NCBI GenBank assembly: GCA_024685775.1
Contig: JAIKVL010000022.1
Span: 1 to 47,428, forward strand
Reading direction: 5' to 3'
From: Clostridia bacterium
GTDB lineage: Bacteria; Bacillota; Clostridia; Christensenellales; CAG-1252
DNA: 47,428 bases
How positions within the stretch are numbered: the first letter of the stretch is position 1; every line of letters begins with the position of its first letter. The position numbers were made by a program, and so were the translations under genes. Shown here in pieces: positions 10,212 to 36,516 of the stretch. Under the pieces are notes generated by a model. It did no database searches and was not told where the DNA came from. It saw only the letters and a program-made list of their open reading frames with translations.

Positions 10212-10244
10212 AAAAAAACACCTCTTGAAAAAATTCTTATATAA

Positions 10245-10273
10245 ATAATACAATAAACGCACGCGTTTGTAAA
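10245..10273 (-). promoter_or_regulatory. Promoter of the YegP-repeat gene
   Basis: On the minus strand TTTACA (10268-10273) and TATTAT (10245-10250) are 17 bases apart. The predicted start point is about 25 bases upstream of the ATG at 10211. Confidence 0.65.
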
Positions 10274-20835: not shown

Positions 20836-22272
20836 TCAATCGCGCCCGGCTGCCAGTCGGACGCAGTTATACCCCCCGTCGTAATACCCCCGATCTTTGA
20901 GTTCTTCGATCCGCGTAAGGATATGCGGCAAGATCTCTTTATCGCCGATCAGACGATCCAGCTCTTCGTTCATACTCTTTTCGGTCGAATACTCGTTTAC
21001 GGAATCGCCGAATTCGCGCCCGTGAAGCGCGCCGTAGACTTCGTGACCGCCGATATGCTTCATAAAGAGTTTGGGGATCGGGTAATACGCGAGCTCGCTG
21101 GGTTTCGTGATCAAAAGATCGGAAACGGGCATCAAGAGATTCGTGGAATAAACCGCTTTGAAAATATCTTCGTTACAGATCGCGTAGATCCCATCCGTCT
21201 CTCCCTCGCGGACGGTGCGGACGAACTCGGTGAATTCGTCGTACTCATTGAAAAAGGTCTTGCAGTTCAGATCGCCGATCTCGGAAACGAGTTTATGATA
21301 AACGTCCTCGTGATCGCCGAAATTGATAAACAGCGTGACTTTTTTCTCCTTAACGTAAGGGAGAAGGTGGCGCACCATCGCGGCGAACGAATCGAAGCCC
21401 TCCCCCGCGCCGCCGACCGTCATCAAAAGGCGAAGGGGCTTTTCCTCCGCGATGCGAGCGCGGCGGAGATCGTTATCTTCCTTCAAGCGATACAAAAGTT
21501 CGTGATCGACGTAGCAACCGACCTCTTTGAGCTCGCTGTCGGGGATCCCTTTCAAGGATTTCTTGTCAAACCCTTCGAGGGTCTTATAGCCCATATAGGC
21601 GAAAGACGTCTGGACGGCGTGGATCGCGCCTTCCGAAAGGTGCAATCCCATCGGCCAATTATCGGGGATCGCGTTTACGACGCGCGTCATTCCGGCGTGG
21701 ATCGCGCCCTGCGAAGGCCAAACGTGGGTCGCGATATAGGGAATATCTTTCGGGATATTCTTGAAGATCGGGACCAACAATTCACTGTTTTTCTGATCTT
21801 TCGCGTTATACGAGATTTTTTTGAATCCCTCGCTGTTCAAGGGCTCCCAAATCAATTTATTGAAGATCGGATCCTTTTGCGATAGGCGCGACGCGAAAGA
21901 ATACATCGCGTTTTGCTTGCGGATCATTTTCGAGCCCGTCGCGTCGAAGGACGCGAGATCGAGCCAATACGGCTTGTAACCGAGCGCCGCCGCGCAGGAA
22001 GCCATCGCGATCGAGATGCGATAATGCCCGAAGCCCATGCGGATATTTCCGACGATCAAAGCCTTCTCGTCGAAGGTCTCGTTCTCCTCGCCGAAGACGA
22101 TATTCTGCGCGCCGATAAAGGACAAAGTGTCGATCGGACGGAACGCGATCTTATAATCCGCGGAAGAATCGTCGCCGTACTTTCTCAGAAATTTCGCCTT
22201 GCTGCGCTCCGCGGCTTTGACGGTTTTTTCGCTCATCGGGTTGCCGAAAATTACTTTGGTCCTTTCTTTCAT
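20836..22272 (-). CDS. Unrecognised GT-B-like protein (GT28-type features)
   Basis: I do not recognise this 478-residue family with certainty. It is probably soluble: no signal peptide or transmembrane helix is visible. Residues 74-90 (VGNIRMGFGHYRISIAM) resemble the glycine-rich N-terminal loop of GT-B enzymes such as MurG and diacylglycerol glycosyltransferases. LLMTVGGAGEGF (282-293) and DLLITKPSELAYYPIP (385-400) resemble the donor-site half, where GT28 enzymes usually show a TKPGG-like motif. A glycosyltransferase or phosphorylase-like activity is therefore possible. The start follows AAGGAG and overlaps the GH36 gene by 4 bases, so it works with the sugar genes before it. It is the last gene of the cassette. 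Confidence 0.6.
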   Translation of the reverse strand: MKERTKVIFGNPMSEKTVKAAERSKAKFLRKYGDDSSADYKIAFRPIDTLSFIGAQNIVFGEENETFDEKALIVGNIRMGFGHYRISIAMASCAAALGYKPYWLDLASFDATGSKMIRKQNAMYSFASRLSQKDPIFNKLIWEPLNSEGFKKISYNAKDQKNSELLVPIFKNIPKDIPYIATHVWPSQGAIHAGMTRVVNAIPDNWPMGLHLSEGAIHAVQTSFAYMGYKTLEGFDKKSLKGIPDSELKEVGCYVDHELLYRLKEDNDLRRARIAEEKPLRLLMTVGGAGEGFDSFAAMVRHLLPYVKEKKVTLFINFGDHEDVYHKLVSEIGDLNCKTFFNEYDEFTEFVRTVREGETDGIYAICNEDIFKAVYSTNLLMPVSDLLITKPSELAYYPIPKLFMKHIGGHEVYGALHGREFGDSVNEYSTEKSMNEELDRLIGDKEILPHILTRIEELKDRGYYDGGYNCVRLAAGRD

Positions 22273-23900
22273 AAAAACTCTCCTTTCTCTTTGTCGTAAA
22301 CAAGGGCGTGGGGGGTTCCTTCGACCTCGTACCGTACCGAAATGCGATTCCTTTTTCTCAAAAACGTTACGTTCTTCGCCTTTCGGAACAGCACGAACGC
22401 GTCGTCCAATCTTTTTTTCGCCCGATCGCCGTACGTCTTCACGTTATCCGAAGTCATAAGGACGTCGCCGAATAAAGCGTTCAAAGTCAGGATCGCGCAT
22501 TTGGTCTTATCTTTGAGTTTCAGGTTTTCGTCGCGAAGGAGGAAGACGTCCGGATCGTTTCCGAAAAACCTTCCGTTCAGAAAACTCCGATAGATCGTGT
22601 TTTGCACCGTCGTCTTGGAAGACGGTCTTTCGCGGTGGAAAAACCGCATATAAAACGCGTCGTCGAAAGACAGCGACATATCCGGTCCGACGCGCATATA
22701 ATCGAATTTCCCCGCGGCGTTCGTCAAGGTCGCGCCGCAGCCGAGGATCAAGCGATCCGACAGTTTCTCTCTCAGGAAGCGATACGCCTCTTCCGCCGCT
22801 CGAGCGCGCGTCTTCCCTTGATAAACGGGAAGGTTCGCCGCGTACAAAAAGTCGAGTTTGAAAAAGTCGAATCCCATATCGGAATAGTACTTCAAACACG
22901 TCTCGATATAGGCGAGGACTTCGGGATTTTCGAGATCGAGCGCGTAAAAGCCGCTCCAATTCGAACCGCATTTTACGAACGCGCCCTTTTCATCCCGCTT
23001 GAACCACGCCTTACGGTGCCGAAAGAGTTCGCTCTCCTCTTCCGCCACGAAGGGCGCGAGCCAAAGCCCCGCTTTCATTCCGCGATCGTGGATCCTTTTT
23101 ACGATGGGTTTGAGCCCGTTCGGGAATTTCAAAGGATCCGCCGTGAGCCAGTCGCCGACTTTGGTCTCGAAGCCGTCGTCGATCTGAAAGAGATTGAACC
23201 GTTCGTCGAGAGCGTCGAGATCTCTTAAAAGGATCTCTTCCGTGACGTCTTGATAATAGTTATACCAAGAGGTGTACCCGAAGATCTTTTCACGCTCTTT
23301 CAAAGGATAGATCTTTTCAAAAGTCGCGAGCCCTTCTTCATAGGAATCGAAGAGATAATAATCCGCGATCGCATAGTTTTCTCCTGCTTTAACCGCCGCG
23401 CCTCTTACGTCCGAGAGAAGTTTGATCTTTCCGCTTTTTCTCTCGACTTCGATAATCAGGTAGGCGTTCTCCGCATTTACGCCGAATAGGAAGCGCGAGC
23501 GTTTTCCCTTTTCGTAAAAGAGATCGAAACCGTGAAGTTTGCTTTTATCGTAATCGTAGAAGGTATAATCCCCGTAGCGGTCGAACGAGAAGGTATCGAC
23601 GACGATCCGCGGAACGCGCTTCAAGCTCTTTTCTTTTTCCGAGAGATACCGCTCGAAACTATCCGTCCAAGACTGGTACCCGTTCAAGAAGAAAAGGTCG
23701 TCCTTCCCGGGTTCGATTTCCAAAGACGGGATTCGCTCTTCGAAGGAAAGAAGCGTCAGATCCTCTTTCGCGGTCAGAAGAATCGTCCTTCGCGCGCCGC
23801 TCGTTCGGAAGGCGAGAGACAGGCATTCGTCCTCGATGAGATTTTCGAGCGAGTGTTCGCCCGCCGCCGTCCGATAGGTCAAAACGAAGCGGTTTTCCAT
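22269..23900 (-). CDS. GH36-type alpha-galactosidase
   Basis: This 543-residue enzyme has an N-terminal beta-sandwich region (about 1-200) and a (beta-alpha)8 barrel. GYTSWYNYYQDVTEE opens the barrel, QIDDGFE and GLWLAPFVAE are typical clan GH-D blocks, FFKLDFLY carries the likely nucleophile D350, and MRVGPDMSLSF the likely acid/base D407. It has no signal peptide, so the substrate must be imported, consistent with the GPH symporter one gene upstream. Shorter than classic dimeric or tetrameric GH36 enzymes (about 720 residues). Alpha-galactosidase is the likely activity, but other alpha-linked substrates are possible. Confidence 0.85.
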   Translation of the reverse strand: MENRFVLTYRTAAGEHSLENLIEDECLSLAFRTSGARRTILLTAKEDLTLLSFEERIPSLEIEPGKDDLFFLNGYQSWTDSFERYLSEKEKSLKRVPRIVVDTFSFDRYGDYTFYDYDKSKLHGFDLFYEKGKRSRFLFGVNAENAYLIIEVERKSGKIKLLSDVRGAAVKAGENYAIADYYLFDSYEEGLATFEKIYPLKEREKIFGYTSWYNYYQDVTEEILLRDLDALDERFNLFQIDDGFETKVGDWLTADPLKFPNGLKPIVKRIHDRGMKAGLWLAPFVAEEESELFRHRKAWFKRDEKGAFVKCGSNWSGFYALDLENPEVLAYIETCLKYYSDMGFDFFKLDFLYAANLPVYQGKTRARAAEEAYRFLREKLSDRLILGCGATLTNAAGKFDYMRVGPDMSLSFDDAFYMRFFHRERPSSKTTVQNTIYRSFLNGRFFGNDPDVFLLRDENLKLKDKTKCAILTLNALFGDVLMTSDNVKTYGDRAKKRLDDAFVLFRKAKNVTFLRKRNRISVRYEVEGTPHALVYDKEKGEFL

Positions 23901-23901
23901 T

Positions 23902-25416
23902 TTACTCTTCGGGGGTATCCGCTTCCGCGTTCTCTTCGATGGTTTCTTCCGTCTCCTCTTCGATCGCGTCGAGACGAAGCGCGACGCTCTCCTCTTCCGC
24001 GGGCGTTTCCGCGGCGGGAACGGGCTCTTTTTTATCGATGATCGACATCACTTTCTTTTCATTATACAGCATCAGGATCAGCGCGCCGATCACGCAGAAC
24101 GCGACCGCCACGAACGCGACGATCATAAGCCCCAAAGAAGAAGCCGTGATCTCGTTCGCATTTTTGTTTTGCGTCGTTCCGAGGATCGCAAGAGAGGTAA
24201 AGACGAGCATCGCGATGGATTGCCCCCACTTCATGGCGAAGGTTCTCGCCGCGAAGAACATTCCCTCGCGGTTCTCTCCGGTGACGACGCCTTCCGCTTC
24301 CGCCACGTCCGCGACGATGGACTGCGGAATGATTCCGAGAAGCGCCATCGGGAACGCCGCGATCACGCAGATCAAGATGCCGAAGACCAATCCGGGGACG
24401 GCGGGAATCACGCGGATCAACGCGGTAACGACATAAGCGAGCGCAAGCCCGAGGAAGCCCGCGATCGTCAATTTCTTCTTTCCGAATTTCTTGACCATTC
24501 CGGACACGAAGGGATAGAAGACGGCGGACAGGACGGTCATACCGCCCATAAAGTACATCGTGTAGCTTTCGTCGATCTTCATCGAGACCTTAACGAAGAA
24601 CGGAAGACCGGTTTGGAACAAAGTCAATCCGACCCAGTACATAATATCCGAACCGACGAAAACGCGGAAATCGCGGTTTTTGAAGGTGGACGCGAGCGAC
24701 TTGAACATATTCGCGTTCGAAGGGACGGTATCCACGAATTCCTTTTCTTTCAAAAGGAACGTCGGGAGCAACATCGCCGCGCAGGCAATGACCGCGAGGA
24801 CGATAAAGCAGACGCGATAGCTCCACGAGAAATCGAGTCCCGCGTCGCGCAGAACGCCCGCAAAGACGAAAGGCGTGTAGGCGAGCAAGGTTCCCGCGAA
24901 GAAGGTCAAAGAGATCGCCGTCGAGATAAACATCCTGTCTTCCTGCGTCTTGCCGAATTCCGAGATCAAAGCGTTATACGGCGTGCAGTACATCGTCATA
25001 AACAGATAGAACAGGACGATAAAGATCGAGATCCAAGCCACGTTTACGCCGCTGATCGCCTTGACGGGAGCGCAGAACAAAAGCACGGTAACGATCGAAA
25101 GCGGGATCGCCGCATATTGCATAAACGGGATGCGCCTTCCTCTCTTATTCTTGCTTCGATCCGACAAACTCGCGATCAGAGGATCGGTGACGGCGTCGAA
25201 CACGCGGCTGAGCGCGGTGATAAGCCCGAGGATGGTCAAAAATCCCGCGATCACGAGACCGGGCTTGATGAATTGCGTTGCGTTCAATTTGGTGATATCG
25301 TCTTGCGTCGGAAGATAAAAAGTCACGAGCCAAGCGTTGATGATGCCGCTGAGCATCGACCAACCGAGTTGTCCGATCGAAAAGATGATCATTTGCTTTT
25401 TGCTTAATCTTTTCAT
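23902..25416 (-). CDS. GPH-family sugar:cation symporter (MFS)
   Basis: The 504-residue protein has about 12 transmembrane helices. The first loop SRVFDAVTDPLIASLSDRS followed by KRGRR is the signature of the glycoside-pentoside-hexuronide family (MelB, XylP). TMYCTPYNALISEF and IVADVAEAEGVVTGENREG also match the family. A roughly 55-residue acidic Glu-rich cytoplasmic tail is extra; in some GPH proteins a IIA domain sits there, but this tail has none. It probably imports the alpha-galactoside cleaved by the GH36 enzyme. No ribosome binding site lies at normal distance: AGGAGGAGG is about 30 bases upstream, with a hairpin between. Confidence 0.9.
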   Translation of the reverse strand: MKRLSKKQMIIFSIGQLGWSMLSGIINAWLVTFYLPTQDDITKLNATQFIKPGLVIAGFLTILGLITALSRVFDAVTDPLIASLSDRSKNKRGRRIPFMQYAAIPLSIVTVLLFCAPVKAISGVNVAWISIFIVLFYLFMTMYCTPYNALISEFGKTQEDRMFISTAISLTFFAGTLLAYTPFVFAGVLRDAGLDFSWSYRVCFIVLAVIACAAMLLPTFLLKEKEFVDTVPSNANMFKSLASTFKNRDFRVFVGSDIMYWVGLTLFQTGLPFFVKVSMKIDESYTMYFMGGMTVLSAVFYPFVSGMVKKFGKKKLTIAGFLGLALAYVVTALIRVIPAVPGLVFGILICVIAAFPMALLGIIPQSIVADVAEAEGVVTGENREGMFFAARTFAMKWGQSIAMLVFTSLAILGTTQNKNANEITASSLGLMIVAFVAVAFCVIGALILMLYNEKKVMSIIDKKEPVPAAETPAEEESVALRLDAIEEETEETIEENAEADTPEE

Positions 25417-25426
25417 AGCTTTTTCA

Positions 25427-25453
25427 AAAGCCCCCGAAAGGGCTCCTCCTCCT
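25427..25453 (-). promoter_or_regulatory. Hairpin between a strong Shine-Dalgarno tract and the symporter start
   Basis: On the minus strand AAGGAGGAGG leads straight into a hairpin (AGCCC/GGGCT, extendable by A-U and G-U pairs) followed by TTTT, then about 12 bases to the ATG at 25416. It could be a weak terminator after tetR, or a fold that shortens or hides the ribosome binding site. The 73-base gap shows no clear separate promoter. Confidence 0.5.
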
Positions 25454-25489
25454 TTTATATTCTCCGTTCGAAGTGAGATCGACCGTTCG

Positions 25490-26098
25490 TTAATTGTGTT
25501 TCAAGGCGGAAAGGATCAAATCCCTCAAAAGCGTTACTTCCGCTTTTTTGTTTACGAGCTCGTCCTGACGGACGATATTGCCTTGCGACGCGAGTTTCTT
25601 GCAAAGGGAAAGAAGCGAGTGCGTCGTGGAATAATAGAAAAGGTCGACGTCTTTGACCTCTTTTACGGTCAGATCTCTTCTGCCCTGCTCGTACGCCGCG
25701 ATGAAATAACTTTTGAAAACGTCCAAATTCTCCGAATATTGATCGAGCCCTTTGACCTCTTCCGAGATGCAGTAGGCGTCGAACTCGCTGAGAAAACGGT
25801 AATATTCGACGTGCTCGGTAAAGGCTTTCAAAAACGCGGAATAAAATTCCGAGAGTTTTTCGAAGCCCGTGCCTTCCTGCGAAAGCTTAAAGTATTCGTT
25901 TCCGACCGTTTCTTGAAGAAGCGTCGCGCAAGCGACGATCAAGGACGCGCGATTGGTAAAATACCGATAAAAGGTCGCCTCGCCCACGTTCGCCTTCAAA
26001 GCCACGTCGCGAATTTTAACGTCATAAATCGACCGCTCGAAAAAAAGGCGAGTCGCTTCCGTCACAATATGCTTTCTTCTGATATCTTTAAACGCCAT
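25490..26098 (-). CDS. TetR-family transcriptional regulator
   Basis: This 202-residue repressor has an N-terminal helix-turn-helix (about residues 8-52), with FFERSIYDVKIRDVALKANV and GEATFYRYFTNRASLI typical of TetR proteins. The C-terminal all-helical ligand domain is not assignable. It follows AAAAGGAGG and its own promoter, with an operator-like repeat at the start point, so it is likely autoregulated. It heads the cassette tetR-symporter-GH36-GT-B-like and is the probable controller of it. Confidence 0.9.
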   Translation of the reverse strand: MAFKDIRRKHIVTEATRLFFERSIYDVKIRDVALKANVGEATFYRYFTNRASLIVACATLLQETVGNEYFKLSQEGTGFEKLSEFYSAFLKAFTEHVEYYRFLSEFDAYCISEEVKGLDQYSENLDVFKSYFIAAYEQGRRDLTVKEVKDVDLFYYSTTHSLLSLCKKLASQGNIVRQDELVNKKAEVTLLRDLILSALKHN

Positions 26099-26137
26099 AA
26101 TTTCCTCCTTTTCACGTTCGCGTCTCGGCGAACAAAC

Positions 26138-26204
26138 GATAGACTGACTGCCATTTTGATAGACCGCCTATCAATACTGTACCGCATTTTGAGAGTTTTG
26201 TCAA
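26138..26204 (-). promoter_or_regulatory. tetR cassette promoter and operator
   Basis: On the minus strand TTGACA (26199-26204), a 17-base spacer and TACAGT (26176-26181) form the promoter. A perfect inverted repeat, TTGATAG-N5-CTATCAA (26156-26174), covers the expected start point. A further GATAGAC element at 26138-26144 repeats the GATAGAC at 26158-26164 exactly 20 bases away, two helical turns. This is a good candidate for the TetR binding site. Confidence 0.8.
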
Positions 26205-26222: not shown

Positions 26223-26261
26223 TAAAAAACGCGCCGCATCTTCGGTTCAAGACACGGCGCG
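26223..26261 (-). terminator. Terminator of the GH4 gene
   Basis: On the minus strand the stem CGCGCCG/CGGCGCG (26230-26261) with an inner TCTT/AAGA pairing is followed by TTTTTTATT. It lies about 28 bases after the stop at 26289. Confidence 0.88.
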
Positions 26262-26288: not shown

Positions 26289-27698
26289 TTACGCTTTCTT
26301 TACGTATTTATCGTAAAACGGAAGGTATTTCGAAGTGTTTTTGAGCATTTGGTTGAAAAGCTCGCGAGCGTCGGCGAGGGGGATCGCCATATTGCCCGAA
26401 TTGACGAACGCTTCGAAAGCGAGTTCGTAGTTGCCGGTGATCGCGGCTTCAAGGGTAAGCTGCTGCTCGTAGACGACGCGGCGGACGAGCGCGTCCACAC
26501 CCTTCGGAAGTTTGCCTGCGCAAACGGGTTGGACGCCGCGCGGCGAGAAGGAGGCGTTGGTTTCGACGACGACGCCTTCGGGGAGATCGGGGATCTGACC
26601 GCGGTTCGGCATATTGACGTTCGTCACGATCGGACGGATACCGAGGATCGCGAGCATTTGATGCACGCCCTCTTCGCCCGTCACTTTAAGCTCGAATTTC
26701 TCTTCGCCCGAAAGGAGTTTCTTGGTCTTGTCGATCTTCTTCGCGAGATCTTCTCTTCTCCAATCGACGGTCGTCAAACCGAATTTCCAAGACTTGACGG
26801 TCTCGGGATCCTTCAAGTACCAGTAACCCGGGCAGAACTCGGCGAGATGTCTGTCGCCCGCGGCGGCGATCACGCCGTATCTCTTGAAAAGATCGAACTT
26901 GACTTTTTCCGCGCTGACGAACGTATTGTTCATCCAGTGCGTCGAGCTGTCCACGATATAGCCGTCCTCGTAGTGCTTATCGACGAACTCTTTATAGACG
27001 GGCATCAAGTCTTCGTTATGATAATGCGCCTCGGTGATCCAAGTAAAGTGGTTTACGCCGACGACGTTGATATTGACGTCTTCCCTTTCGAGGAACTTGC
27101 CGTACTTCTCTTGATAGGCAAGACCGAGAATCTTTTGCGTCCCGAAGACTTCGTGGCAGCAGCCGAACGCTTTGATCTCGGGATAATAGGCGTACAACGC
27201 GGCGGTGCAAAGCGTCATCGGGTTCGTGTAGTTGATGACCCATGCGTTCGGGCAGTAATCGCGAATGCCTTCCGCGAATTCCTTATACATCGGAAGGGTG
27301 CGGAGCGCGCGAACGATACCGCCGGGGCCTACGCTGTCGCCGACCGATTGATAGATCCCGTACTTTTCGGGAAGGTGGACGTCGCTCGCCATCTCGTCGA
27401 AGGTTCCCGGGAGAATGGAGATCACGACGAAGTCCGCGCCGACGAGCGCTTCTTTCAAGGTCTTGACTGCTTTATAATGCCATTTTCCGAGGACGTCCTC
27501 TCTGTCGTAAATGCCGTTTCCGATCGTCTCGTTCGCTTTCGCCGCTTCGAAATCGATATCATACAGATAGACGCTTCCGCTCATTTCATCCGTTTGCGCA
27601 AGGTCGCTCATCAAGCCGCGCGCCCAGCCTCTCGAACCGCCGCCGATATAGGCGATCTTTACGTCTTCCGCTTTTTTACCGTTATCAACGTATTTCAT
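26289..27698 (-). CDS. GH4 alpha-galacturonidase (CHEV type)
   Basis: This 469-residue enzyme belongs to family GH4, which uses NAD+, a divalent metal and a redox-elimination mechanism. The Rossmann start IAYIGGGSRGWARGL (15-29), the NYTNPM block (156-161) and the metal site CHEV (181-184) are visible. The CHEV tetrad is known as the mark of GH4 alpha-galacturonidases such as B. subtilis LplD; other GH4 activities have CHSV, CHGx or CNVP. It is cytosolic and would release galacturonate from imported pectin fragments. The ATG follows AAAGGAG. It is divergent from an AraC regulator, and the weak -35 region suggests activator dependence. Confidence 0.88.
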   Translation of the reverse strand: MKYVDNGKKAEDVKIAYIGGGSRGWARGLMSDLAQTDEMSGSVYLYDIDFEAAKANETIGNGIYDREDVLGKWHYKAVKTLKEALVGADFVVISILPGTFDEMASDVHLPEKYGIYQSVGDSVGPGGIVRALRTLPMYKEFAEGIRDYCPNAWVINYTNPMTLCTAALYAYYPEIKAFGCCHEVFGTQKILGLAYQEKYGKFLEREDVNINVVGVNHFTWITEAHYHNEDLMPVYKEFVDKHYEDGYIVDSSTHWMNNTFVSAEKVKFDLFKRYGVIAAAGDRHLAEFCPGYWYLKDPETVKSWKFGLTTVDWRREDLAKKIDKTKKLLSGEEKFELKVTGEEGVHQMLAILGIRPIVTNVNMPNRGQIPDLPEGVVVETNASFSPRGVQPVCAGKLPKGVDALVRRVVYEQQLTLEAAITGNYELAFEAFVNSGNMAIPLADARELFNQMLKNTSKYLPFYDKYVKKA

Positions 27699-27855: not shown

Positions 27856-28656
27856 ATGGATAAGCTGTTGAAGATCGAAGAACTGTCCAATCCGAACAAT
27901 ATGGCGATGCCGAAGCTGCACGCGCACCCCTATTTCGAGATCTATTTTCTTTTCGAGGGGAAGCGCAGTTTCTTTTTCGACAATTCTCTGCGCGCCATCG
28001 AAGCGCCCGTCCTTTTGGTCGTCCCGCCCTACACCATGCATAAGACCGAAGGCAGTGCCTTTCGCCGCGTCAATATTTACGTTACGCCGAGCCGCTTGGA
28101 CGAATTCCAGCGCGACCTTCTCTCCGCCGTCTCCCTTTCGGTCATCAAACTGACCGAGACGCAAAGAGACGAGCTTCTGTCCGTCCTTCGAAAGGAAGCG
28201 GACGTTCCCCCTTCCGACCCGCACTACGCCGAGATCCAAAACGCGAAGTTTTCCTATTTTATGCTTCTTCTTTCCGAGATCGAAAAAGGGATCGCACCGC
28301 ATAACGCGAAAGGGGAAGAACTCGCGCCCCTCGTCACCGCCGCGGTCAATTACCTGAACCAAAACTACGGCGACGAAGTGACCTTGGACGAGCTTTGCCG
28401 CGCCCTCTTCACCTCGAAACAGACCTTGATCTATAATTTCAAAAAGCATCTCGACGTCTCGCCGATGAAATACCTTTTGAAACTGCGCCTGACCAAAGTC
28501 AAAGAGCTCCTCGTTACGACAGACGAAACGATCGAATCCATCGCCGAACAGACGGGCTTTTCCTCCGGGAACTACCTGACTTTGATCTTCAAACAAAAAG
28601 AGGGGCTTTCCCCCTCTCAGTACCGCAAAGAAAACAAGGATTTCTTTTTGCGGTAA
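27856..28656 (+). CDS. AraC-family transcriptional regulator
   Basis: The 266-residue protein has an N-terminal cupin-like sensor domain (about 1-140; HAHPYFEIYFLFEGKRSF fits the first cupin motif). A C-terminal double helix-turn-helix follows (about 165-262), with VTLDELCRALFTSKQTLIYN and the family signature IAEQTGFSSGNYLTLIFKQK. This layout is usual for sugar-responsive activators. It is divergent from the GH4 gene across 157 bases, so it probably activates GH4 in response to a uronide. Its stop is 4 bases from the convergent stop of the zinc-ribbon gene, with no terminator in between. Confidence 0.9.
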   Translation: MDKLLKIEELSNPNNMAMPKLHAHPYFEIYFLFEGKRSFFFDNSLRAIEAPVLLVVPPYTMHKTEGSAFRRVNIYVTPSRLDEFQRDLLSAVSLSVIKLTETQRDELLSVLRKEADVPPSDPHYAEIQNAKFSYFMLLLSEIEKGIAPHNAKGEELAPLVTAAVNYLNQNYGDEVTLDELCRALFTSKQTLIYNFKKHLDVSPMKYLLKLRLTKVKELLVTTDETIESIAEQTGFSSGNYLTLIFKQKEGLSPSQYRKENKDFFLR

Positions 28657-29285: not shown

Positions 29286-31763
29286 TTATTTCAGCAACCG
29301 AACCGGTCCGAAAAGTCCGCCCGACAAGGACGATTTATGGAATTTGCGCTCGACGGGGAGATAGCGGGTCAATTGGTTTTTCTTATATTTCTTAAACGAT
29401 CTCGTATGCTCGAATTCGTTCGCCGCGCTGTTCGTCACGCGGACGACGATCTCGTTCTCTTCTTTCAAAAGCTCTTTCGGAAGTTCGATTTTATAGGGCG
29501 GCGCGATCAACGTTCCGACCGAAACCCCGTTCAAAAAGACTCCGCAGGAATAATCCACCCTGCCGAGATCGAGGAAAAGCCGCTCGGGGATCTCGGGCAA
29601 TGAGAACGTCGCGCGGTATTCTCCGCTCCCCGAATACCCCTTGCCGACGATCTTTCGCCAATCTCCGAGTTCGACGGGGCGAAAAGATTCCGAGAAAGTC
29701 TCTTTTCCGAAGTCGTCTTTCCCGATCACGAAGCGTTCCGTTTTGCGGAAGGAAAAATCCGATATGGGGACGGACTCATCCCCTCTGAAAGGCTCTTCGC
29801 AAGGAAGTTTCTCTTCGGTAATAAGCAGCGCCGCGATCTCGCCCGAGCAGAGCGTCAGCGAAAGTTCACCGCCCGTTTTCGGCGCAAAAATTTTCCCGAC
29901 GAAGGGATCGATCCGATAGCATTTCTTTTCGGGCAAACGCACGCGGCAGGTTTTCGCCTCCGCGCTTTCGTTCATTAGGAAAAAGAATTCGCCGTTCCGC
30001 GTCTTGCTTTCCGCGAGAGAAACGCCCTCGCCTTCGATTTCAAGCGACGGAGAAAGCGCGTTCAGGGCGAGATCGAACGCCGCGCCTTTGATCTCCCGCG
30101 CGTTCTCTTCTTTCAAGCAAAGGACTTTCCCGCCCTTTTCCGCAAACGCTTCGAGCGCGGAAACCGCCTCGGGAGAAAGGAATTCGCATGGCGGGAGAAC
30201 GACCGCTTCGTAACGCGCGCGCCCGATAAAAAGCGCGCCTCTTTCGGCGAAAGCGGACGCCAAGCCGTCGTCCGAGAGAATGTCGAAGGAAATTCTTTTT
30301 TCTTCGAGGAGTTTTCCCGCGGCGAGATAGGCTTCGCCCTTTTCCGCGAAGTCGCCCGCATAGGCGTCGCGCAAAGGATAATACAGGGCGACGGGCGCGA
30401 CCCGTTCTCCGACGGAGAAAAGATAGGAAAGCCTTTCGGCGAACGCGTTGAACGCCGCGAGATCGCGATAGCAGCCGTGCGTCTCGGAAAAATGCGGGAG
30501 TTCGCCCGTCCTCAAAAAGCCCGTCCTCCCGTAAGAGAACATCATCAAATTATAGAGATTGATCCCGCGCATCGCCTGAAAGGAAAGGACGTAGCGCATT
30601 TCCTCGAAAGTCAGCCCGTTCCCGTAAACGGCGAAAGATTCGGTCAGCGCGCGGCGATTCCCCTTTTGCGCCGCCGCGGAAGACGCGAGACGCGGGAAAA
30701 AGCCGTTCGCACCCTTGGAGATCTCTCCCTTTCTCGGCGGAAAGATCTGCCGCCAAATCGCGTCCACGCCGGGGACGTCGAGTTTCCCGAGCGCGCGAAG
30801 GAGATCGAACGAACCGCCGGACAAAGCGCCGTTCGCCTCGTCGTCCTTATCGAAATGCCCGAGGAACAAAAGCCCGCGCTTTTCGCACCAATCCTTTTCC
30901 GTTTGCAAATAATTCTCCGCAAAAAGTTCAGCGCAAAGCGTCAGATACTTGATGCGGATCTCTTTTTCTTCGCGGGTCTTCGGCTCGAACAGCGCGGGAA
31001 GATAATCCCGAATATCGAATCCGAAACGGGCGAGGAACCGTTCCGCGATCTCTTCGCGATACGGGAAGGGGCGCGGCGCGGTGGGTTCGTCCGTAAAGAC
31101 GGCGGTGATCGTCTCTCCGAAGAAATCGCCGACGGCTTTTTCATAAGCGTCGTGCGTCAAAGAGAGAAAGGTTTCCGCGCTTTGTTTTTTGGTCAGGTCG
31201 GGGATATTCGCGCTGTCTCCCCCGCTTTCGATCCGTTCTTTATAATACTCCGTGATCTCGGTTTTTCGATCGAAGCGATCGCCCTTTCGAATTCCGGCTC
31301 GATCCTTAAACGCCGCGACCGCATCCGCGGACGGCAGATAAGGTTTTCCCTTTCGAAGAGCGCGGGAACGAGCGCGCAAAACTTCGCGCGCAAGGGTCGG
31401 ATCCTTTTTTACGACCGCGCCGCAAGCCCCGCCGGACGGCCATCCGCCTTCGTCATACAGCCAAACGTCCATTCCCGCTTCTTTCGCTTTTTCGAGCGCG
31501 AAACGGTACTCGGCGAAAAATCCGTCCGACAGATAATCGGGCGAAAGCAGAGTCGGATGCGCTTTCGGGCGAAAGGAAGAAGGAAGCGGCAAGACGTAAA
31601 ACCGCTTGATCCCGAGGCGGCGCATTTCTTCGATCTGCCGCGCGGTCTCCTCTTTCGAAAGAGGCGCGTCCCAAGTCCAAGTGTAGACGGGTGAAAAAGA
31701 AAGAGAGGGAGAAAAGAATTCTTCCGCGGAAAACGTTCGAATTGCGCCCTCTCTTTTCTGCAT
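29286..31763 (-). CDS. Large glycoside hydrolase, probably GH106-like alpha-L-rhamnosidase
   Basis: The frame runs up to 31964, but the first 67 codons lie inside rhaD; the ATG at 31763, which overlaps the rhaD stop as TAATG, is chosen. This gives 825 residues. The N-terminal part (about 22-115) has VYTWTWDAPLSKEETARQIE, RLGIKRFYVLPL, DYLSDGFFAEYRFAL and WLYDEGGWPSGGA. This is the opening of barrel enzymes of the GH106 and related type. The C-terminus (about 690-800) is a GH2-like galactose-binding sandwich (LFLDLGRVDYSCGVFLNG). No signal peptide is visible, so it would act on imported oligosaccharides. The rha genes beside it favour rhamnoside hydrolysis; the exact family and activity need confirmation. 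Confidence 0.65.
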   Translation of the reverse strand: MQKREGAIRTFSAEEFFSPSLSFSPVYTWTWDAPLSKEETARQIEEMRRLGIKRFYVLPLPSSFRPKAHPTLLSPDYLSDGFFAEYRFALEKAKEAGMDVWLYDEGGWPSGGACGAVVKKDPTLAREVLRARSRALRKGKPYLPSADAVAAFKDRAGIRKGDRFDRKTEITEYYKERIESGGDSANIPDLTKKQSAETFLSLTHDAYEKAVGDFFGETITAVFTDEPTAPRPFPYREEIAERFLARFGFDIRDYLPALFEPKTREEKEIRIKYLTLCAELFAENYLQTEKDWCEKRGLLFLGHFDKDDEANGALSGGSFDLLRALGKLDVPGVDAIWRQIFPPRKGEISKGANGFFPRLASSAAAQKGNRRALTESFAVYGNGLTFEEMRYVLSFQAMRGINLYNLMMFSYGRTGFLRTGELPHFSETHGCYRDLAAFNAFAERLSYLFSVGERVAPVALYYPLRDAYAGDFAEKGEAYLAAGKLLEEKRISFDILSDDGLASAFAERGALFIGRARYEAVVLPPCEFLSPEAVSALEAFAEKGGKVLCLKEENAREIKGAAFDLALNALSPSLEIEGEGVSLAESKTRNGEFFFLMNESAEAKTCRVRLPEKKCYRIDPFVGKIFAPKTGGELSLTLCSGEIAALLITEEKLPCEEPFRGDESVPISDFSFRKTERFVIGKDDFGKETFSESFRPVELGDWRKIVGKGYSGSGEYRATFSLPEIPERLFLDLGRVDYSCGVFLNGVSVGTLIAPPYKIELPKELLKEENEIVVRVTNSAANEFEHTRSFKKYKKNQLTRYLPVERKFHKSSLSGGLFGPVRLLK

Positions 31764-32581
31764 TATTTCAAATTCAAAAAGTCTTTGCGATAGTCGACCT
31801 TGAAAAGTTCGGCAAGCTTGACCATATCTTCGTCCTTGATCGTGTTCAAGCGGGGAAGATGCGCGGTCAGCATATAGATCTGCGCCGCTTTTTCCACCGT
31901 CTCGATCAATCCGAAGGTCTCGTCCATCGTCTTGCCCGCGCCGTAGACGCCGTGAAGCGCCCAAACGACGACGCGGAATTCTTTCATTTTATTCGCGGTC
32001 GCGACGCCGATGTCGTTCGTCCCGCAAAGCATCCAAGGCAGGACGCCGACGCCGTCCGGGAAGACGACGATGCACTCGGTACACATTTCCCAAAGGGTGT
32101 GGGTAAATTTCTTTTCGTCGAGCTCGTGGACGTAATTCATCGCGAGAAGGTTGGTCGGATGGCAATGCATAACGACGCGGTTCGCGGGGTCTTTTTCGAG
32201 CCTCGCGATATGGCTCATCATATGCGCGGGGAACTCGGACGTAAAGCGTCCGCCGTCCTTATAGCCCCAAAGAAGCTCTGCGGTCGTTCCGTCTTCCGCG
32301 ATGCGAAGGACGCCGAGATTGGTCTCGGGATCGTCGTCCACGTTCTTGAAATACTTGCCCGTTCCCGTGACGATAAAGTACTTTCCGGCAAGGGCCGCGG
32401 CGTCGAATCCGGTCGGGATGCGGCGCAGGACCTTTTTCGGATCGAGGTACTTTTTGACTTCGCTTTCATCCAAAAGATAGCTGATGTTGCCCCCGTTTCT
32501 CTCGTCCCAACCGAGGCGGTACATATTGGCGGTGGTTTTGCGCATCTCCGTTACGAACGGCGCGGTCATGATGTCTTTCAT
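31763..32581 (-). CDS. rhaD: L-rhamnulose-1-phosphate aldolase
   Basis: This 272-residue class II aldolase splits rhamnulose 1-phosphate into dihydroxyacetone phosphate and L-lactaldehyde. GNISYLL, the TGTGKYFKN phosphate loop, SEFPAHMMSH with the catalytic glutamate, the Zn ligands in VMHCHPTN and the third His in VVWALHG are in place. Its ATG overlaps the rhaA stop (TAATG). Length and motif order match RhaD rather than the shorter fuculose aldolase. Confidence 0.93.
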   Translation of the reverse strand: MKDIMTAPFVTEMRKTTANMYRLGWDERNGGNISYLLDESEVKKYLDPKKVLRRIPTGFDAAALAGKYFIVTGTGKYFKNVDDDPETNLGVLRIAEDGTTAELLWGYKDGGRFTSEFPAHMMSHIARLEKDPANRVVMHCHPTNLLAMNYVHELDEKKFTHTLWEMCTECIVVFPDGVGVLPWMLCGTNDIGVATANKMKEFRVVVWALHGVYGAGKTMDETFGLIETVEKAAQIYMLTAHLPRLNTIKDEDMVKLAELFKVDYRKDFLNLK

Positions 32582-33825
32582 TATTTTCTCCCCCTTAACG
32601 CGGTTTCTTCATAGTTTTTGACTTCGGAATAGTAATCGTCCGAAAGGTTTTGCCTGTCAAGGTATTCTTCCCAAACGTCTCCGAACGGCAAGGTCTTTAC
32701 CCTCTCCTGCAAGAACATAAGTTCGGTAAATTTTCCTTCGTCCTGCAACGTTTTGAGTTTTTGATTCGGCAAAAGCAGGGCGTACAGGAGCGCCTTTTGC
32801 ATCGCGCGCTGACCGGTCACCCAAGCGGAAATGCGGTTGATCGACGCGTCGAAATAATCAAGCCCGATCAAGACTTTTTCGGTCGCGCCGTTGCGAACGA
32901 TCTCTTTCGCGATCTCTTTGAGTTCGTCTTCGAACAGGACGACGTGATCGCTGTCCCAGCGAACGGGGCGCGTCACGTGCAAGGCGACTTTATCGTAAAA
33001 CGCGAGCAGAGACGGGATCTTATCCGAGACGACTTCGGTCGGATGATAATGCCCGTTATCGAGCAGGCAGCAAATGCCCGCCTTGGCGGCGTAGTTTTGA
33101 TAGAATTCGTTATTTCCGACGGTGTAACTTTCCACGCCGATGCCGAAAACTTTGCTTTCGACGGCGGGGATCACCCATTTTTTATCGTAATTCGCGAGCA
33201 TCTCGTCGAGGGACTTTTTGAGGCGAAGGCGAGGTCCGAGGCGATCGGACGGAACGTCCTTAAAGCCGTCCGGAATCCAAATATTGACCAAAGCGGGCTT
33301 ACCGAACGCCTTCCCCATTTCGGCGGCGATCTCCAAGCTTCTCTTGCCGTGCTCCACCCAGAATTTTCTCGTTTCCTCGTCGGGCGAGGACAAAGAAAGC
33401 CCGTCTTTCATCTTCGGATGCGCGAAGAACGTCGGGTTGAAATCGACGCCGTCCAAGCCGAGTTTCTTCGCGAACTCGACCCATTTCTCGAAATGCTTAT
33501 AGGTATAGCCGTCGCGATCGACTTTGCCCTTATCCTCTCCGAGGAAGGCGTAGCAAGCGTGGACGTTCAGGCGTTTTTTACCCGGCATCAAAGACACCGC
33601 TTTTTCGATATCGGCGAAGAGTTCTTCGGGCGTGCGGGCGCGATAAGGATAATTTCCCGTCGTCTGGATCCCGCCGGACAAAGAATCCGCGCCGTCGAAT
33701 CCGATCACGTCGTCCCCTTGCCAGCAATGGACGGAAACGGGGATCTCTTTCAGAGCGGCGAGCGCGGCTTCCGCATCTACGCCGAAAGACTTGTAAATCT
33801 CTTTTGCGCTTTCAAATCTCGTCAT
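32581..33825 (-). CDS. rhaA: L-rhamnose isomerase
   Basis: This 414-residue TIM-barrel enzyme converts L-rhamnose to L-rhamnulose. The start is ATG at 33825 after AAGGAG; seven more codons upstream are open but lie in rhaB. SVHCWQGDDVIGFD, LNVHACYAF, GVDFNPTFFAHP, WIPDGFKD and CLLDNGHYHPTE are strongly family-like and hold the metal ligands. The protein overlaps the end of rhaB by 14 bases. Length matches the RhaA family (about 415-420). Confidence 0.95.
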   Translation of the reverse strand: MTRFESAKEIYKSFGVDAEAALAALKEIPVSVHCWQGDDVIGFDGADSLSGGIQTTGNYPYRARTPEELFADIEKAVSLMPGKKRLNVHACYAFLGEDKGKVDRDGYTYKHFEKWVEFAKKLGLDGVDFNPTFFAHPKMKDGLSLSSPDEETRKFWVEHGKRSLEIAAEMGKAFGKPALVNIWIPDGFKDVPSDRLGPRLRLKKSLDEMLANYDKKWVIPAVESKVFGIGVESYTVGNNEFYQNYAAKAGICCLLDNGHYHPTEVVSDKIPSLLAFYDKVALHVTRPVRWDSDHVVLFEDELKEIAKEIVRNGATEKVLIGLDYFDASINRISAWVTGQRAMQKALLYALLLPNQKLKTLQDEGKFTELMFLQERVKTLPFGDVWEEYLDRQNLSDDYYSEVKNYEETALRGRK

Positions 33826-35200
33826 AGTGAATCTCCTTAATCTCAAATGAATTGTTTATGATTTCGCGCGCGGACGCGAGATCTTCGATCTCCCCCGTCG
33901 CGATCCTTTGCATGATTGCGTTTCCGATCGCGGTGGCTTCCACCGGACCCGAAACGACCTTTTTCCCCGTCTCTTTCGCCGTCAGGCGGGACAAGAGTTC
34001 GTTTTGACAGCCGCCGCCGATGATATGAAGACAATCGAATCTTTTCCCCGAGATCGCTTCGAGTTCGTTAAGCGCGGCGGCATAGCCTTTCGCGAGGGAG
34101 CGGAAGACCGAATAGCAGGTCTCGCCGACGCTTCTCTCTCCGATTCGGCTTCGGACGGCTTCGAGCATACTTTCGGGCGCGAGAAAGATCTCGTCCGAAA
34201 CGTCGAAAACAGCGTCCGTCGGTTCCTCGGCGGCAAGACGCGCGAGTTCGGAGAAAGAATAGGCGTCGCCGAGTTCCTTTCGGATCTGCTGGACGATCCA
34301 AAGCCCGATGATGTTCTTTTGCAGGCGGAAGGTAAAATTCAAACCGCCTTCGTTCGAATAATTGCGGCGCATCGCGTCTTCCGAGACGGTCGCGAAGGGC
34401 ATCTCCGCGCCGAGAAGCGACCAAGTCCCCGAAGAAAGATAGGGAGACCCGTCCTGAACGGGAGCGGCGAGGACCGCGCTCGCGGTGTCGTGCGTGGCGG
34501 GCAAAAGGACGGTCGGCTTATAGCCGATCTCTCGCGCGATCTCTTCTTTGACTTCGCCGACGACGCTCCCGGGCTGCGAAAGCGAGCCGAAGAGCTTTTT
34601 CGGGAAACCGAAAGAAGACAGGATGGTTTCATCCCATTCGTGCGACGCGGCGTTCACCATTCCGGTCGAAGTCGCGTTCGTGTATTCTTGTTTTTTGACG
34701 CCGGTCAGAAGGAAATTAAAGTAATCGGGAAGCATCAAAAAAGTTTCGGTTTCCGAAAGGCGACCCGTCTTTTTATCGTCCGCGAGTTGATACAGCGTGT
34801 TGAACGGAGCGTACTGAATGCCCGTCCTCCGATACAGCTCGGAGAACGGAAGAACGGCGTGCGCTTCCTCTTTGATCGCCGCGCCGCGCCCGTCTCGATA
34901 GGAATAGACGCCGCCGATCGGCTTATCCTCTTTATCCAAAAGCGCGTAGTCAACCGCCCAAGTGTCGATCCCGACGTAGGACGGCGTAAAACCCTTTTCT
35001 TTTGCGGCTTTGAGCCCGTTTACGATCTCGGAAAAAAGAGCGTCCGCGTTCCAAAAAAGCCGCCCGTCTTTCTTCTCCGCGCCGTTCGGGAAGCGATAGA
35101 CTTCACTCAGACGGAGTTTGCCGCCTTCCAAACGCGAAACGATATGCCGCCCGGAAGACGCCCCGATATCGATGGATAAATAAATCTTGCTTTCGCTCAT
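33812..35200 (-). CDS. rhaB: Rhamnulokinase
   Basis: The start is ATG at 35200 (MSESKIYLSIDIGASSGRH), which overlaps the GH125 stop as ATGA; 23 open codons upstream lie in GH125. The 462-residue FGGY-family kinase phosphorylates L-rhamnulose. YLSIDIGASSGRH is the phosphate 1 motif of the actin-like fold, VGIDTWAVDYALLD is diagnostic for RhaB, PATHDTASAVLAAP and HIIGGGCQNELLS follow in order. No good ribosome binding site is seen, so translation is probably coupled to GH125. Confidence 0.94.
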   Translation of the reverse strand: MSESKIYLSIDIGASSGRHIVSRLEGGKLRLSEVYRFPNGAEKKDGRLFWNADALFSEIVNGLKAAKEKGFTPSYVGIDTWAVDYALLDKEDKPIGGVYSYRDGRGAAIKEEAHAVLPFSELYRRTGIQYAPFNTLYQLADDKKTGRLSETETFLMLPDYFNFLLTGVKKQEYTNATSTGMVNAASHEWDETILSSFGFPKKLFGSLSQPGSVVGEVKEEIAREIGYKPTVLLPATHDTASAVLAAPVQDGSPYLSSGTWSLLGAEMPFATVSEDAMRRNYSNEGGLNFTFRLQKNIIGLWIVQQIRKELGDAYSFSELARLAAEEPTDAVFDVSDEIFLAPESMLEAVRSRIGERSVGETCYSVFRSLAKGYAAALNELEAISGKRFDCLHIIGGGCQNELLSRLTAKETGKKVVSGPVEATAIGNAIMQRIATGEIEDLASAREIINNSFEIKEIHYDEI

Positions 35201-36516
35201 TTTCGAACAAAACAATTCTTTTTCGCGAGGATCAAATACGCAAACAGCGAATTTGCCCAAGCGAACCAAGGACGGGTGTAGACGGAAGCGTCGTCCTTAT
35301 GCACGCCTTCGTGAATATAACCCGTTCCGTCCGTCGAGTTTACGATCATTTCGACGAGCGAGCGGACTTCGCCCTCGTCGTCCGTCGTCAATGCCTGAAT
35401 GATCAAAGAAAGCGGCCAGACGTAATCCTTCGGCGTATGCGGACTTCCGACGCCCGTCAGGCATTTCCCTTTATAATAGAAAGGATTTTTCTCGCTCAAA
35501 ATAAAGTCGCGCGTGTTTTGATAGATCTCGTTATTCGTAAACGGATAGCGATAGTACGGGATCGCGAGAAGGTTCGGGATATTCGCGTCGTCCATCACGT
35601 TAAACGAGCCGAGCCCGTCCGTTTCGAGAGCGTAGATCTTTTTGCCGTCTTTTTCGGTCACGCCTTTTTCTTCGATCTCCGTTTTCAGTTTTTCCGTCCA
35701 TTCGCGACACATCGCGGCGCGGGGCGCGTCGCCCTTTTTCTCGAAGATCGGCGCGAGAGAATGCAAAACGGAGCAAATAAACATATTTCCGGGGATATAA
35801 TAGCCGTAAGTGCATTTATCGTCGCTCGGGCGATAGCCGGACCAGACGAGCCCGCCGCCCGAAACTGGCGTCCCTTTCCCGCACCAACGCGATTCGTCGC
35901 GGTTTGGGATCTCGTGATAATATTCGGACTTTGCTGCGTGATCCCTCTCGATGGAAAAGACGATCATCATTTCGTCGAACGCTTTGAAGAAAAGCTCGTC
36001 GAAGATCGAGTCGTCTTCCGTCTCTTCATAGTAGCGGATCGCGAGGAAAAACGGATAGCACAGAGAGTCCAATTCGAATTTTCTTTCCCAAACCCACAAA
36101 GAAGGCTTCGGAAGATCCCGCGTGTGTCCGTTTCCGTTCGCGGAACGGTTGAACGCGTTTGCGTAAGGATCGATCAAGATATAACCGAATTGCTTTTTCA
36201 GGACGCCTTTGATCAGCGCGCGGACCTCTTCGCATTTCTTCGCGAAAAAGAGATACTGCATGACCTGTGCCGCCGAATCGCGAAGCCACATCGCGGGGAT
36301 ATCCCCCGTCAGGACGAAAACCGATTCGTCCTTCTCGAAGAAGGTCGTCGTGTGGATCGTGTTGAAGAAACATTTCTCGAAGGTTTGCTTCAAGCGGTCG
36401 TCCGAAAGGTCTTTTTCGAATTCGCGAACGAGTCTCAAAAGAGGCTCGAAGCGCTCCGCATTCATTTTACTGTCGATCGAACTGATCCTCTCTCGGACCG
36501 TTTTGCTTTTGCACAT
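35197..36516 (-). CDS. GH125 exo-alpha-1,6-mannosidase
   Basis: The 439-residue (alpha/alpha)6-barrel protein has TGDIPAMWLRDSAAQV (about residues 70-85), DPYANAFNRSANG, WERKFELDSLCYPF, GTPVSGGGLVWSGYRPSDD and SPHTPKDYVWPLS. This set is typical of GH125 metal-independent exo-alpha-1,6-mannosidases. No signal peptide is seen. Known members remove alpha-1,6-linked mannose from N-glycan or mannan cores. AGGGG overlapping the malQ stop serves as ribosome binding site. Its place between malQ and rhaB is unusual. Confidence 0.9.
   Translation of the reverse strand: MCKSKTVRERISSIDSKMNAERFEPLLRLVREFEKDLSDDRLKQTFEKCFFNTIHTTTFFEKDESVFVLTGDIPAMWLRDSAAQVMQYLFFAKKCEEVRALIKGVLKKQFGYILIDPYANAFNRSANGNGHTRDLPKPSLWVWERKFELDSLCYPFFLAIRYYEETEDDSIFDELFFKAFDEMMIVFSIERDHAAKSEYYHEIPNRDESRWCGKGTPVSGGGLVWSGYRPSDDKCTYGYYIPGNMFICSVLHSLAPIFEKKGDAPRAAMCREWTEKLKTEIEEKGVTEKDGKKIYALETDGLGSFNVMDDANIPNLLAIPYYRYPFTNNEIYQNTRDFILSEKNPFYYKGKCLTGVGSPHTPKDYVWPLSLIIQALTTDDEGEVRSLVEMIVNSTDGTGYIHEGVHKDDASVYTRPWFAWANSLFAYLILAKKNCFVRK

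Follow-up and report, generated by a model that had tools for sequence, protein, structure and literature searches.

Within the 47,428-nucleotide stretch of the Clostridia bacterium contig JAIKVL010000022.1 that was analysed here (the window), four neighbouring genes encode a TetR-family regulator, a GPH-family symporter, a predicted alpha-galactosidase of family GH36 and a 478-residue protein of the Pfam families DUF6937 and DUF6938 (hereafter the DUF protein). The cassette is a real, widespread and well-delimited module centred on an uncharacterised GT28-like enzyme, and it can be viewed as a variant of the alpha-galactoside operons that stands a testable chance of carrying out a new reaction. 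That the DUF protein serves as a GT28-like catalyst in galactoside or galactose metabolism is held with considerable confidence; that the cassette is a TetR-controlled galactoside-utilisation module in which the DUF protein acts on the product of the GH36 enzyme is the reading towards which we lean. The cassette and its flanking signals are made up as follows.

26230 to 26261, minus strand: terminator-like hairpin with a 13-bp stem and a T-run, between a GH4 gene and the cassette
26176 to 26204, minus strand: promoter-like TTGACA-17-TACAGT of the cassette (10 of 12 matches)
26157 to 26173, minus strand: candidate TetR operator TGATAG-N5-CTATCA, directly downstream of the -10 box and kept across loci
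25490 to 26098, minus strand: TetR-family regulator (Pfam TetR_N, 2.4e-10)
23902 to 25416, minus strand: GPH-family (MFS_2) cation symporter (Pfam MFS_2, 1.8e-47)
22269 to 23900, minus strand: predicted GH36 alpha-galactosidase, short type, cytosolic, Thermotoga maritima GalA-like (Pfam Melibiase, 3.9e-14)
22269 to 22272, minus strand: 4-base overlap (ATGA) of GH36 stop and DUF start, with possible translational coupling
20836 to 22272, minus strand: DUF6937-DUF6938 protein of 478 residues, a GT28-like GT-B enzyme by Pfam, structural model, fold search and profile comparison

The original prediction, made from the sequence of the window, had described a cassette of tetR, a GPH symporter, a cytosolic GH36 enzyme and a 478-residue protein joined to GH36 by a 4-base overlap; all four genes indeed lie on the minus strand with assignments that agree with Pfam, and the GH36 stop codon and the ATG of the DUF gene share positions 22269 to 22272. 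The genes follow one another in the order TetR, GPH, GH36, DUF, separated by gaps of 73 bases and 1 base and then by the overlap, and a signal peptide is not evident on either the GH36 enzyme or the DUF protein when judged by eye rather than with a predictor. Because a terminator-like site behind the GH4 gene is followed by the promoter-like site, whose first base is position 26204, the four genes look like a single transcription unit; promoter-like sites number 6 in the region against 3.6 in shuffled sequences. The candidate operator is the core of the palindrome TTGATAGGCGGTCTATCAA (26156 to 26174). Directly upstream of the cassette lie a GH4 alpha-galactosidase-like gene (26289 to 27698) and a divergent AraC regulator (27856 to 28656), a pair common to just two close relatives (L031 and L032) among the 80 loci surveyed below, and it is for this reason, together with the terminator-like site in between, that both are excluded from the cassette. 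By DUF sequence the nearest relative is one of these two, a Christensenella metagenome-assembled genome (L031, 85%).

The same prediction could name no family for the 478-residue protein, a view that has to be given up, as the protein matches DUF6937 (4.2e-109, 363.7 bits) and DUF6938 (7.4e-77, 258.6 bits; gathering cut-off 27 bits each) over its whole length, though neither family has an assigned function. No NCBIfam model matched, PDB sequences gave no match to the protein singly or as a 14-row profile, and the GT28 Pfam models PF03033, PF04101 and PF06925 gave none at E values up to 1; a divergent relative (L229) matches PF06925 at 0.005, under its cut-off. Literature searches found no paper naming DUF6937, DUF6938, PF22052 or PF22053 and, as judged from titles and the opening text of abstracts, no description of the cassette.

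Structure prediction and fold search of the product of 20836 to 22272 led to a GT-B sugar fold and to no non-sugar family: the AlphaFold2 model, built from 42 rows, has a mean predicted local distance difference test score (pLDDT) of 93 and a predicted template modelling score (pTM) of 0.92, and all 50 among the Foldseek matches listed are GT-B type proteins. By VIA-align the top match is the plant galactolipid synthase MGD1 (Z 23.2, 301 residues aligned, root-mean-square deviation 4.0, 15% identity), tied with MurG (Z 22.6) and followed at 19 by UDP-GlcNAc 2-epimerases; the VIA-align matches may omit other fold families, and no argument is drawn from their absence. The structural alignment to MGD1 and MurG spans residues 67 to 478 and leaves a 66-residue N-terminal extension uncovered, and over this span the modelled protein has the GT-B fold proper to GT28. 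Profile-profile comparison of the DUF protein with five bacterial GT28/MGDG_synth proteins gave E values of 1e-5 to 1e-6 in single comparisons, against 0.06 to 0.89 in eight comparisons involving unrelated profiles, and a divergent spirochaete subfamily bridges the two, at 8e-24 to the DUF core family and 3e-8 to GT28. The GT28-like motifs that had been suspected are thus borne out by fold and profile comparisons that both return GT28-type GT-B proteins. The enzyme resembles a GT28-type enzyme and probably derives from one, though we do not file it in GT28. Four segments carry the likeness.

22012 to 22047, minus strand: residues 76 to 87, NIRMGFGHYRIS, glycine-rich loop of the N domain with H83, aligned to the GxGH loop of MGD1
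21403 to 21414, minus strand: residues 287 to 290, GGAG, C-domain loop, counterpart of GT28 GGS.G, invariant in 42 rows
21091 to 21108, minus strand: residues 389 to 394, TKPSEL, counterpart of GT28 TKPGGLTxSE, with deletions directly after it that remove the usual position of the ribose-binding Glu
21040 to 21051, minus strand: residues 408 to 411, GGHE, counterpart by alignment of the GT28 GQE hexose contact

About 110 residues are invariant in the 42 DUF rows, many of them in loops of the GT-B cleft. Every residue of the first loop except F81 and S87 is among them, including H83, which aligns with the GxGH loop that in MGD1 carries the catalytic H155, according to passages of PMC7419546. 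The GGAG loop is retained in nearly all solo and outgroup members and is lost in L227 and L228, two full-length spirochaete DUF6938 proteins (L227:6550-8040 and L228:7331-8746) that have neither the GxGH nor the GGAG loop and are, judging from these losses, likely non-catalytic derivatives. After TKP the outgroup has a 2-residue gap, which in the core family is 3 residues longer, amounting to a 5-residue deletion in the ribose-Glu/helix region; in GT28 enzymes such as MurG a ribose-binding Glu sits in the helix after KPGG, and the DUF protein lacks it at that position, where E393 might act as a substitute. Among genus mates the DUF protein is 73-85% identical, against 56-74% for its GH36 partner (fragments included).

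A scan of species genomes gave at least 593 stretches, 590 of them with an encoded relative, and the neighbourhood of the gene was surveyed in the best 80 of these, a sample ranked by similarity and not random. Among the 58 loci with at least 4.2 kb upstream of the DUF gene, 54 have a GPH symporter, 51 a GH36 enzyme, 37 a TetR regulator and 11 a GalK within 5.5 kb, and the predominant order in the 80 loci is that of the window. The exact 4-base overlap recurs in 29 of 67 measurable GH36/DUF pairs, with open reading frames taken from the first start codon and some overlaps thus overlong. In three Lachnospiraceae loci (L105, L108 and L110) GH36 and DUF are instead joined, in this order, in a single gene of about 1032 codons; a second such fusion occurs in the L110 genome. 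A class sample that was evenly drawn contained DUF6937 in 15 of 291 genomes, with GPH nearby in 11, GH36 in 10, GalK in 6, GalT in 5 and neither GPH nor GH36 in 2. The cassette occurs in several phyla, among gut and rumen bacteria; no relatives were found on the viral contigs searched, and one was found on the plasmids searched, on pTS2 of Treponema saccharophilum. Some loci are duplicates, namely L030 and L194 (the same T. saccharophilum locus) and the pairs L043/L126, L067/L122 and L076/L127. Loci lacking GH36 were considered as proof of a GH36-independent DUF protein, a view that was mostly rejected, as a GH36 was found elsewhere in most of the nine genomes concerned: three have an orthologous GH36 (49-53%), three a relative at 37-41% and two a long-type GH36, with G350 ambiguous. 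Flanking genes were likewise abandoned as a clue to the substrate, no family having more than four members among the families listed (the first 25 of 77 and of 68, from 75 hand-picked neighbours, mostly out of 163 same-strand ones, plus 59 of 98 opposite-strand ones). In genome G060, 98% complete at 1.2 Mb, a DUF gene (L124:9195-10487) without about the first 50 residues stands alone; GalK-GalT is present there, and no GH36 relative of the cassette type was found.

The candidate operator recurs across the loci. Among 40 TetR genes of the window's kind, 33 have TGATAG-N5-CTATCA upstream with at most one mismatch and 35 with at most two, where resampled sequence gives means of 0.01 and 0.27; this count leaves out L122, L125, L126 and L127, of which L125 is without a demonstrated duplicate. 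At the five remaining loci a site with no more than one mismatch falls just within an open reading frame whose start was called too far upstream. Nine other TetR genes that were scanned have no operator directly upstream; they come from Treponema-type loci, which have TetR inside the operon, and there perfect sites precede the operon's first gene (L188 to L195 and L030), with that of L193 placed between divergent GH36 and DUF genes. A scan of 20 cassettes in which no TetR was detected, some of them cut by contig ends, found no site. In genome G353 the set is divided between two contigs, GPH-DUF (L092) on one and TetR-GH36-GalK (L178) on the other, with a perfect site at each, which places DUF, GPH, GH36 and GalK in one regulon. 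In T. saccharophilum pTS2 the first gene behind the perfect operator (L030:7992-9974) encodes a 660-residue protein that appears to have a signal peptide and ends in Phe, a candidate outer-membrane galactoside channel from its sequence features; such an apparent channel at the head of the operon fits a soluble substrate.

As to the partners, the window GH36 enzyme finds 6lcj (1.6e-46) and 1zy9 (2.1e-43) in the PDB, and its KLDF and RVGPD motifs align with KIDF and RIGPD of 1zy9. The Asp residues of these motifs we take to be the catalytic pair of GH36, and with the Melibiase domain (PF02065) and both motifs in place the protein belongs to GH36 and is predicted to have alpha-galactosidase activity. 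In one set of Clostridia the partner is a long type with N- and C-terminal domains. The symporters also come in two kinds, so that the cassette has two GPH kinds and two GH36 kinds around the DUF protein as the constant part. Residues of the cation site and those linked to it (D55, D59, T121, T373 and K377) are each present in 80 of 80 cassette GPH rows. In MelB, K18, D19, D124, W128 and R149 bind the galactosyl group, as passages of PMC8329300 have it, and the window symporter has W, S, C, N and S at these positions; 70 of 85 cassette rows show this pattern or one near it, the second kind (14 rows) retains all five MelB residues, and L038 is mixed. Duplicates were kept in the GPH rows, and the 14 count T. 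saccharophilum twice. Since the MelB pocket is intact in the second kind, a galactoside substrate is likely on these residues. The best PDB match of the window symporter, the lysophospholipid symporter MFSD2A (3.4e-12), prompted the idea of lyso-galactolipid import. That idea was judged weak and dropped: the T. saccharophilum operon, whose symporter is of the other kind than the window's, begins with an apparent outer-membrane channel, and E. coli sugar symporters such as YagG match too.

Genes of galactose metabolism accompany the cassette in the genus of the window. Among 61 related genomes GalK is found above its cut-off in 11 of 14 with the DUF gene and in 4 of 47 without it, and within the genus in 10 of 10 and 0 of 3, respectively. 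The window genome encodes GalK and GalE, and a scan of it for GalT (PF02744) detected none. L196, an independent cassette that lies outside the main clade, combines DUF, GalK and GH36 with a divergent GalE and no GalT in the stretch.

The origin of the cassette seems to lie among the spirochaetes, where DUF6938 is found in 75 of 296 genomes of the phylum. Treponema-type copies sit in the cassette, and many others are solo, adjoining EF-G, SecA, a glutamyl-type tRNA synthetase and other unrelated genes. A constant link of the DUF gene with GH36, which the original prediction had proposed to check in other genomes, therefore holds for members of the cassette type, whose neighbourhoods are not random and which share GPH, the operator and in some Lachnospiraceae the fusion as well, and fails for the solo spirochaete members beside housekeeping genes; the GH36 link is a property of one derived clade and not of the whole family. 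A 71-row tree, obtained by a quick search with no bootstrap after 30 of 101 rows, mostly near-copies, had been removed, places 32 of 33 cassette rows in one clade (Shimodaira-Hasegawa-like approximate likelihood ratio support 99) with one solo row within it; across the tree the label switches three times. This is most simply explained by a single main event in which a galactoside cassette took up a spirochaete enzyme, with later spread to Bacillota and Mycoplasmatota. Very divergent DUF6938 relatives adjoin GT28/MGDG_synth-like genes (L233:6611-7759 and L229:8342-9478), and related genes of about 380 residues are adjacent in six spirochaete loci; these neighbours are possibly a paired system for glycolipid synthesis.

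How would such a module work? TetR would bind TGATAG-N5-CTATCA at the promoter and be released by the imported galactoside or its product; the symporter would bring in a small soluble galactoside, the GH36 enzyme would take off its terminal alpha-galactose, and the DUF protein would move the galactosyl group of the remainder, or of the released galactose once activated, via its GT28-like site. The fusion of GH36 and DUF and the overlap of their genes suggest consecutive steps, and hence that the DUF protein most likely acts on the GH36 product. The likeliest single version is catabolic: an inverting transfer of the residual beta-galactosyl group to phosphate, yielding galactose-1-phosphate and an alcohol, for example from the beta-galactosylglycerol of plant galactolipid head groups. 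It is a tentative proposal. A phosphorylase and a galactolipid-type substrate were among the possibilities that the original prediction named, besides remodelling of the imported sugar. A phosphate partner in place of UDP would be consistent with the missing ribose-Glu segment. Passages of PMC5809773 describe the digalactosyl head group as Gal alpha-1,6-Gal beta; trimming by GH36 would leave a beta-galactoside of glycerol, the type of bond made by monogalactosyldiacylglycerol (MGDG) synthase. In its most specific form, which we regard as a long shot, the DUF protein would be the first glycoside phosphorylase of the GT28 fold, or a physiologically reversed transferase, that is, an MGDG-synthase-like enzyme that breaks beta-galactosylglycerol and lets herbivore-gut bacteria and spirochaetes ferment chloroplast galactolipid head groups once the alpha-1,6-galactose of their digalactosyl form has been taken off by GH36.

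Several observations weigh against a galactoside module in which the DUF protein follows GH36. The solo relatives in spirochaetes have the motifs of the cassette members even though their surroundings bear no relation to galactosides, which points to an older role; the window's own kind of symporter lacks the MelB galactoside residues; a GH2 enzyme, which could cut a beta-galactoside without the DUF protein, is near it in 5 of the 15 class-survey loci; and outside the genus GalK goes with 1 of 4 DUF-bearing and 4 of 44 other genomes, which is not significant. A scan of the window genome for glycerol kinase found none, a Dak1-family protein being present, so that glycerol as a by-product is without support, and the use of galactosylglycerol via glycerol kinase was rejected.

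Nearly as likely as the preferred reading is a biosynthetic one, which we put forward just as tentatively as the catabolic version: galactose salvaged by GH36 would be turned into UDP-Gal, and the DUF protein would be a transferase that uses it to make a beta-galactosylated glycolipid, compatible solute or glycan. In its favour, the closest folds belong to biosynthetic UDP-sugar transferases, the protein retains the GxGH loop, the GGAG loop and the GHE counterpart of GQE, the window genome has both GalK and GalE, GalE stands beside the DUF gene in L196, solo relatives occur outside catabolic contexts and very divergent ones adjoin true GT28 genes. Against it stand the ties to an importer and a hydrolase (shared regulation, gene overlap, gene fusion), which one would not ordinarily expect of a biosynthetic enzyme, the deletion of the position at which UDP-using GT28 enzymes have their ribose-Glu, and the failure to detect GalT in the window genome. 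That absence could be turned around by supposing that the DUF protein replaces GalT and converts Gal-1-P towards UDP-Gal, as the GalK and GalE of the window genome and the gene content of L196 would allow; several DUF loci carry GalT too, however (L039, L111 to L114 and L117), as does G060, the protein does not have a nucleotidyltransferase fold and metagenome-assembled genomes are incomplete, which makes the idea improbable.

A GH36 enzyme together with an importer is what one typically sees for raffinose-family sugars, and the sucrose synthases have the GT-B fold, which raises the thought that the DUF protein handles the sucrose part after GH36, as a GT-B sucrose phosphorylase or in a sucrose-synthase-like step. 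Known sucrose enzymes, however, are GT4-like and the DUF protein is nearest to GT28, no fructokinase or fructosidase family is among the flank families listed (the first 25 of 77 and of 68), and galactose genes recur at the loci instead; we consider this unlikely, if a shade less so than the replacement of GalT. Least probable of all is that the DUF protein is a non-catalytic passenger or sugar sensor. The spread of the cassette over several phyla and its presence on a Treponema plasmid would suit a mobile element, whereas the invariant residues, many in cleft loops, the stronger conservation of the DUF protein than of GH36 and the maintenance of fusion and overlap speak against a mere passenger.

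The orphan family DUF6937/DUF6938 thereby acquires solid metabolic surroundings, a regulator, a candidate operator for it and naturally occurring fusions, and its function can therefore be tested by a few experiments. If the catabolic version is true, the GT28 fold would acquire a new type of reaction; if the biosynthetic one is, galactoside uptake would be linked directly to glycan or lipid synthesis. Galactolipids, of which the abstract of PMC5809773 treats those of chloroplasts, and other galactosides are plentiful in the herbivore diet, and their use by gut bacteria is, in our view, poorly mapped. Elsewhere in the window are a rhamnose-utilisation stretch (29286 to 35269) with a GH106-like rhamnosidase, L-rhamnose isomerase and an FGGY kinase, and a gene for a 549-residue protein with repeated DUF1508 domains in three stretches (8613 to 10262).

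Among known systems, the GT28 enzymes MGD1 and MurG share with the DUF protein the GT-B fold, being its closest structures by VIA-align Z, as well as the GxGH loop with its His, the GGxG loop, the TKP segment and the GHE/GQE counterpart; the DUF protein differs in having no GT28 Pfam match, in the 5-residue deletion at the ribose-Glu and its helix, in the 66-residue N-terminal extension and in its place in an operon for import and hydrolysis. The fusion of GH36 to a second enzyme recalls AgaSK of Ruminococcus gnavus, where, according to the abstract of PMC7688924, the partner is a sucrose kinase, the cassette fusions having the GT-B protein instead. In layout (regulator, GPH symporter, glycosidase) the cassette is like uidRAB of E. 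coli, which has a beta-glucuronidase rather than GH36 and no transferase-like enzyme; UidR we take to be of the TetR type. With melAB of E. coli and similar operons it shares an alpha-galactosidase, a GPH symporter and a regulator, and the galactoside pocket of MelB, absent from the window's GPH kind, is intact in the second kind; it differs from them in having GH36 in place of MelA, TetR in place of MelR and, at its centre, a GT28-like enzyme.

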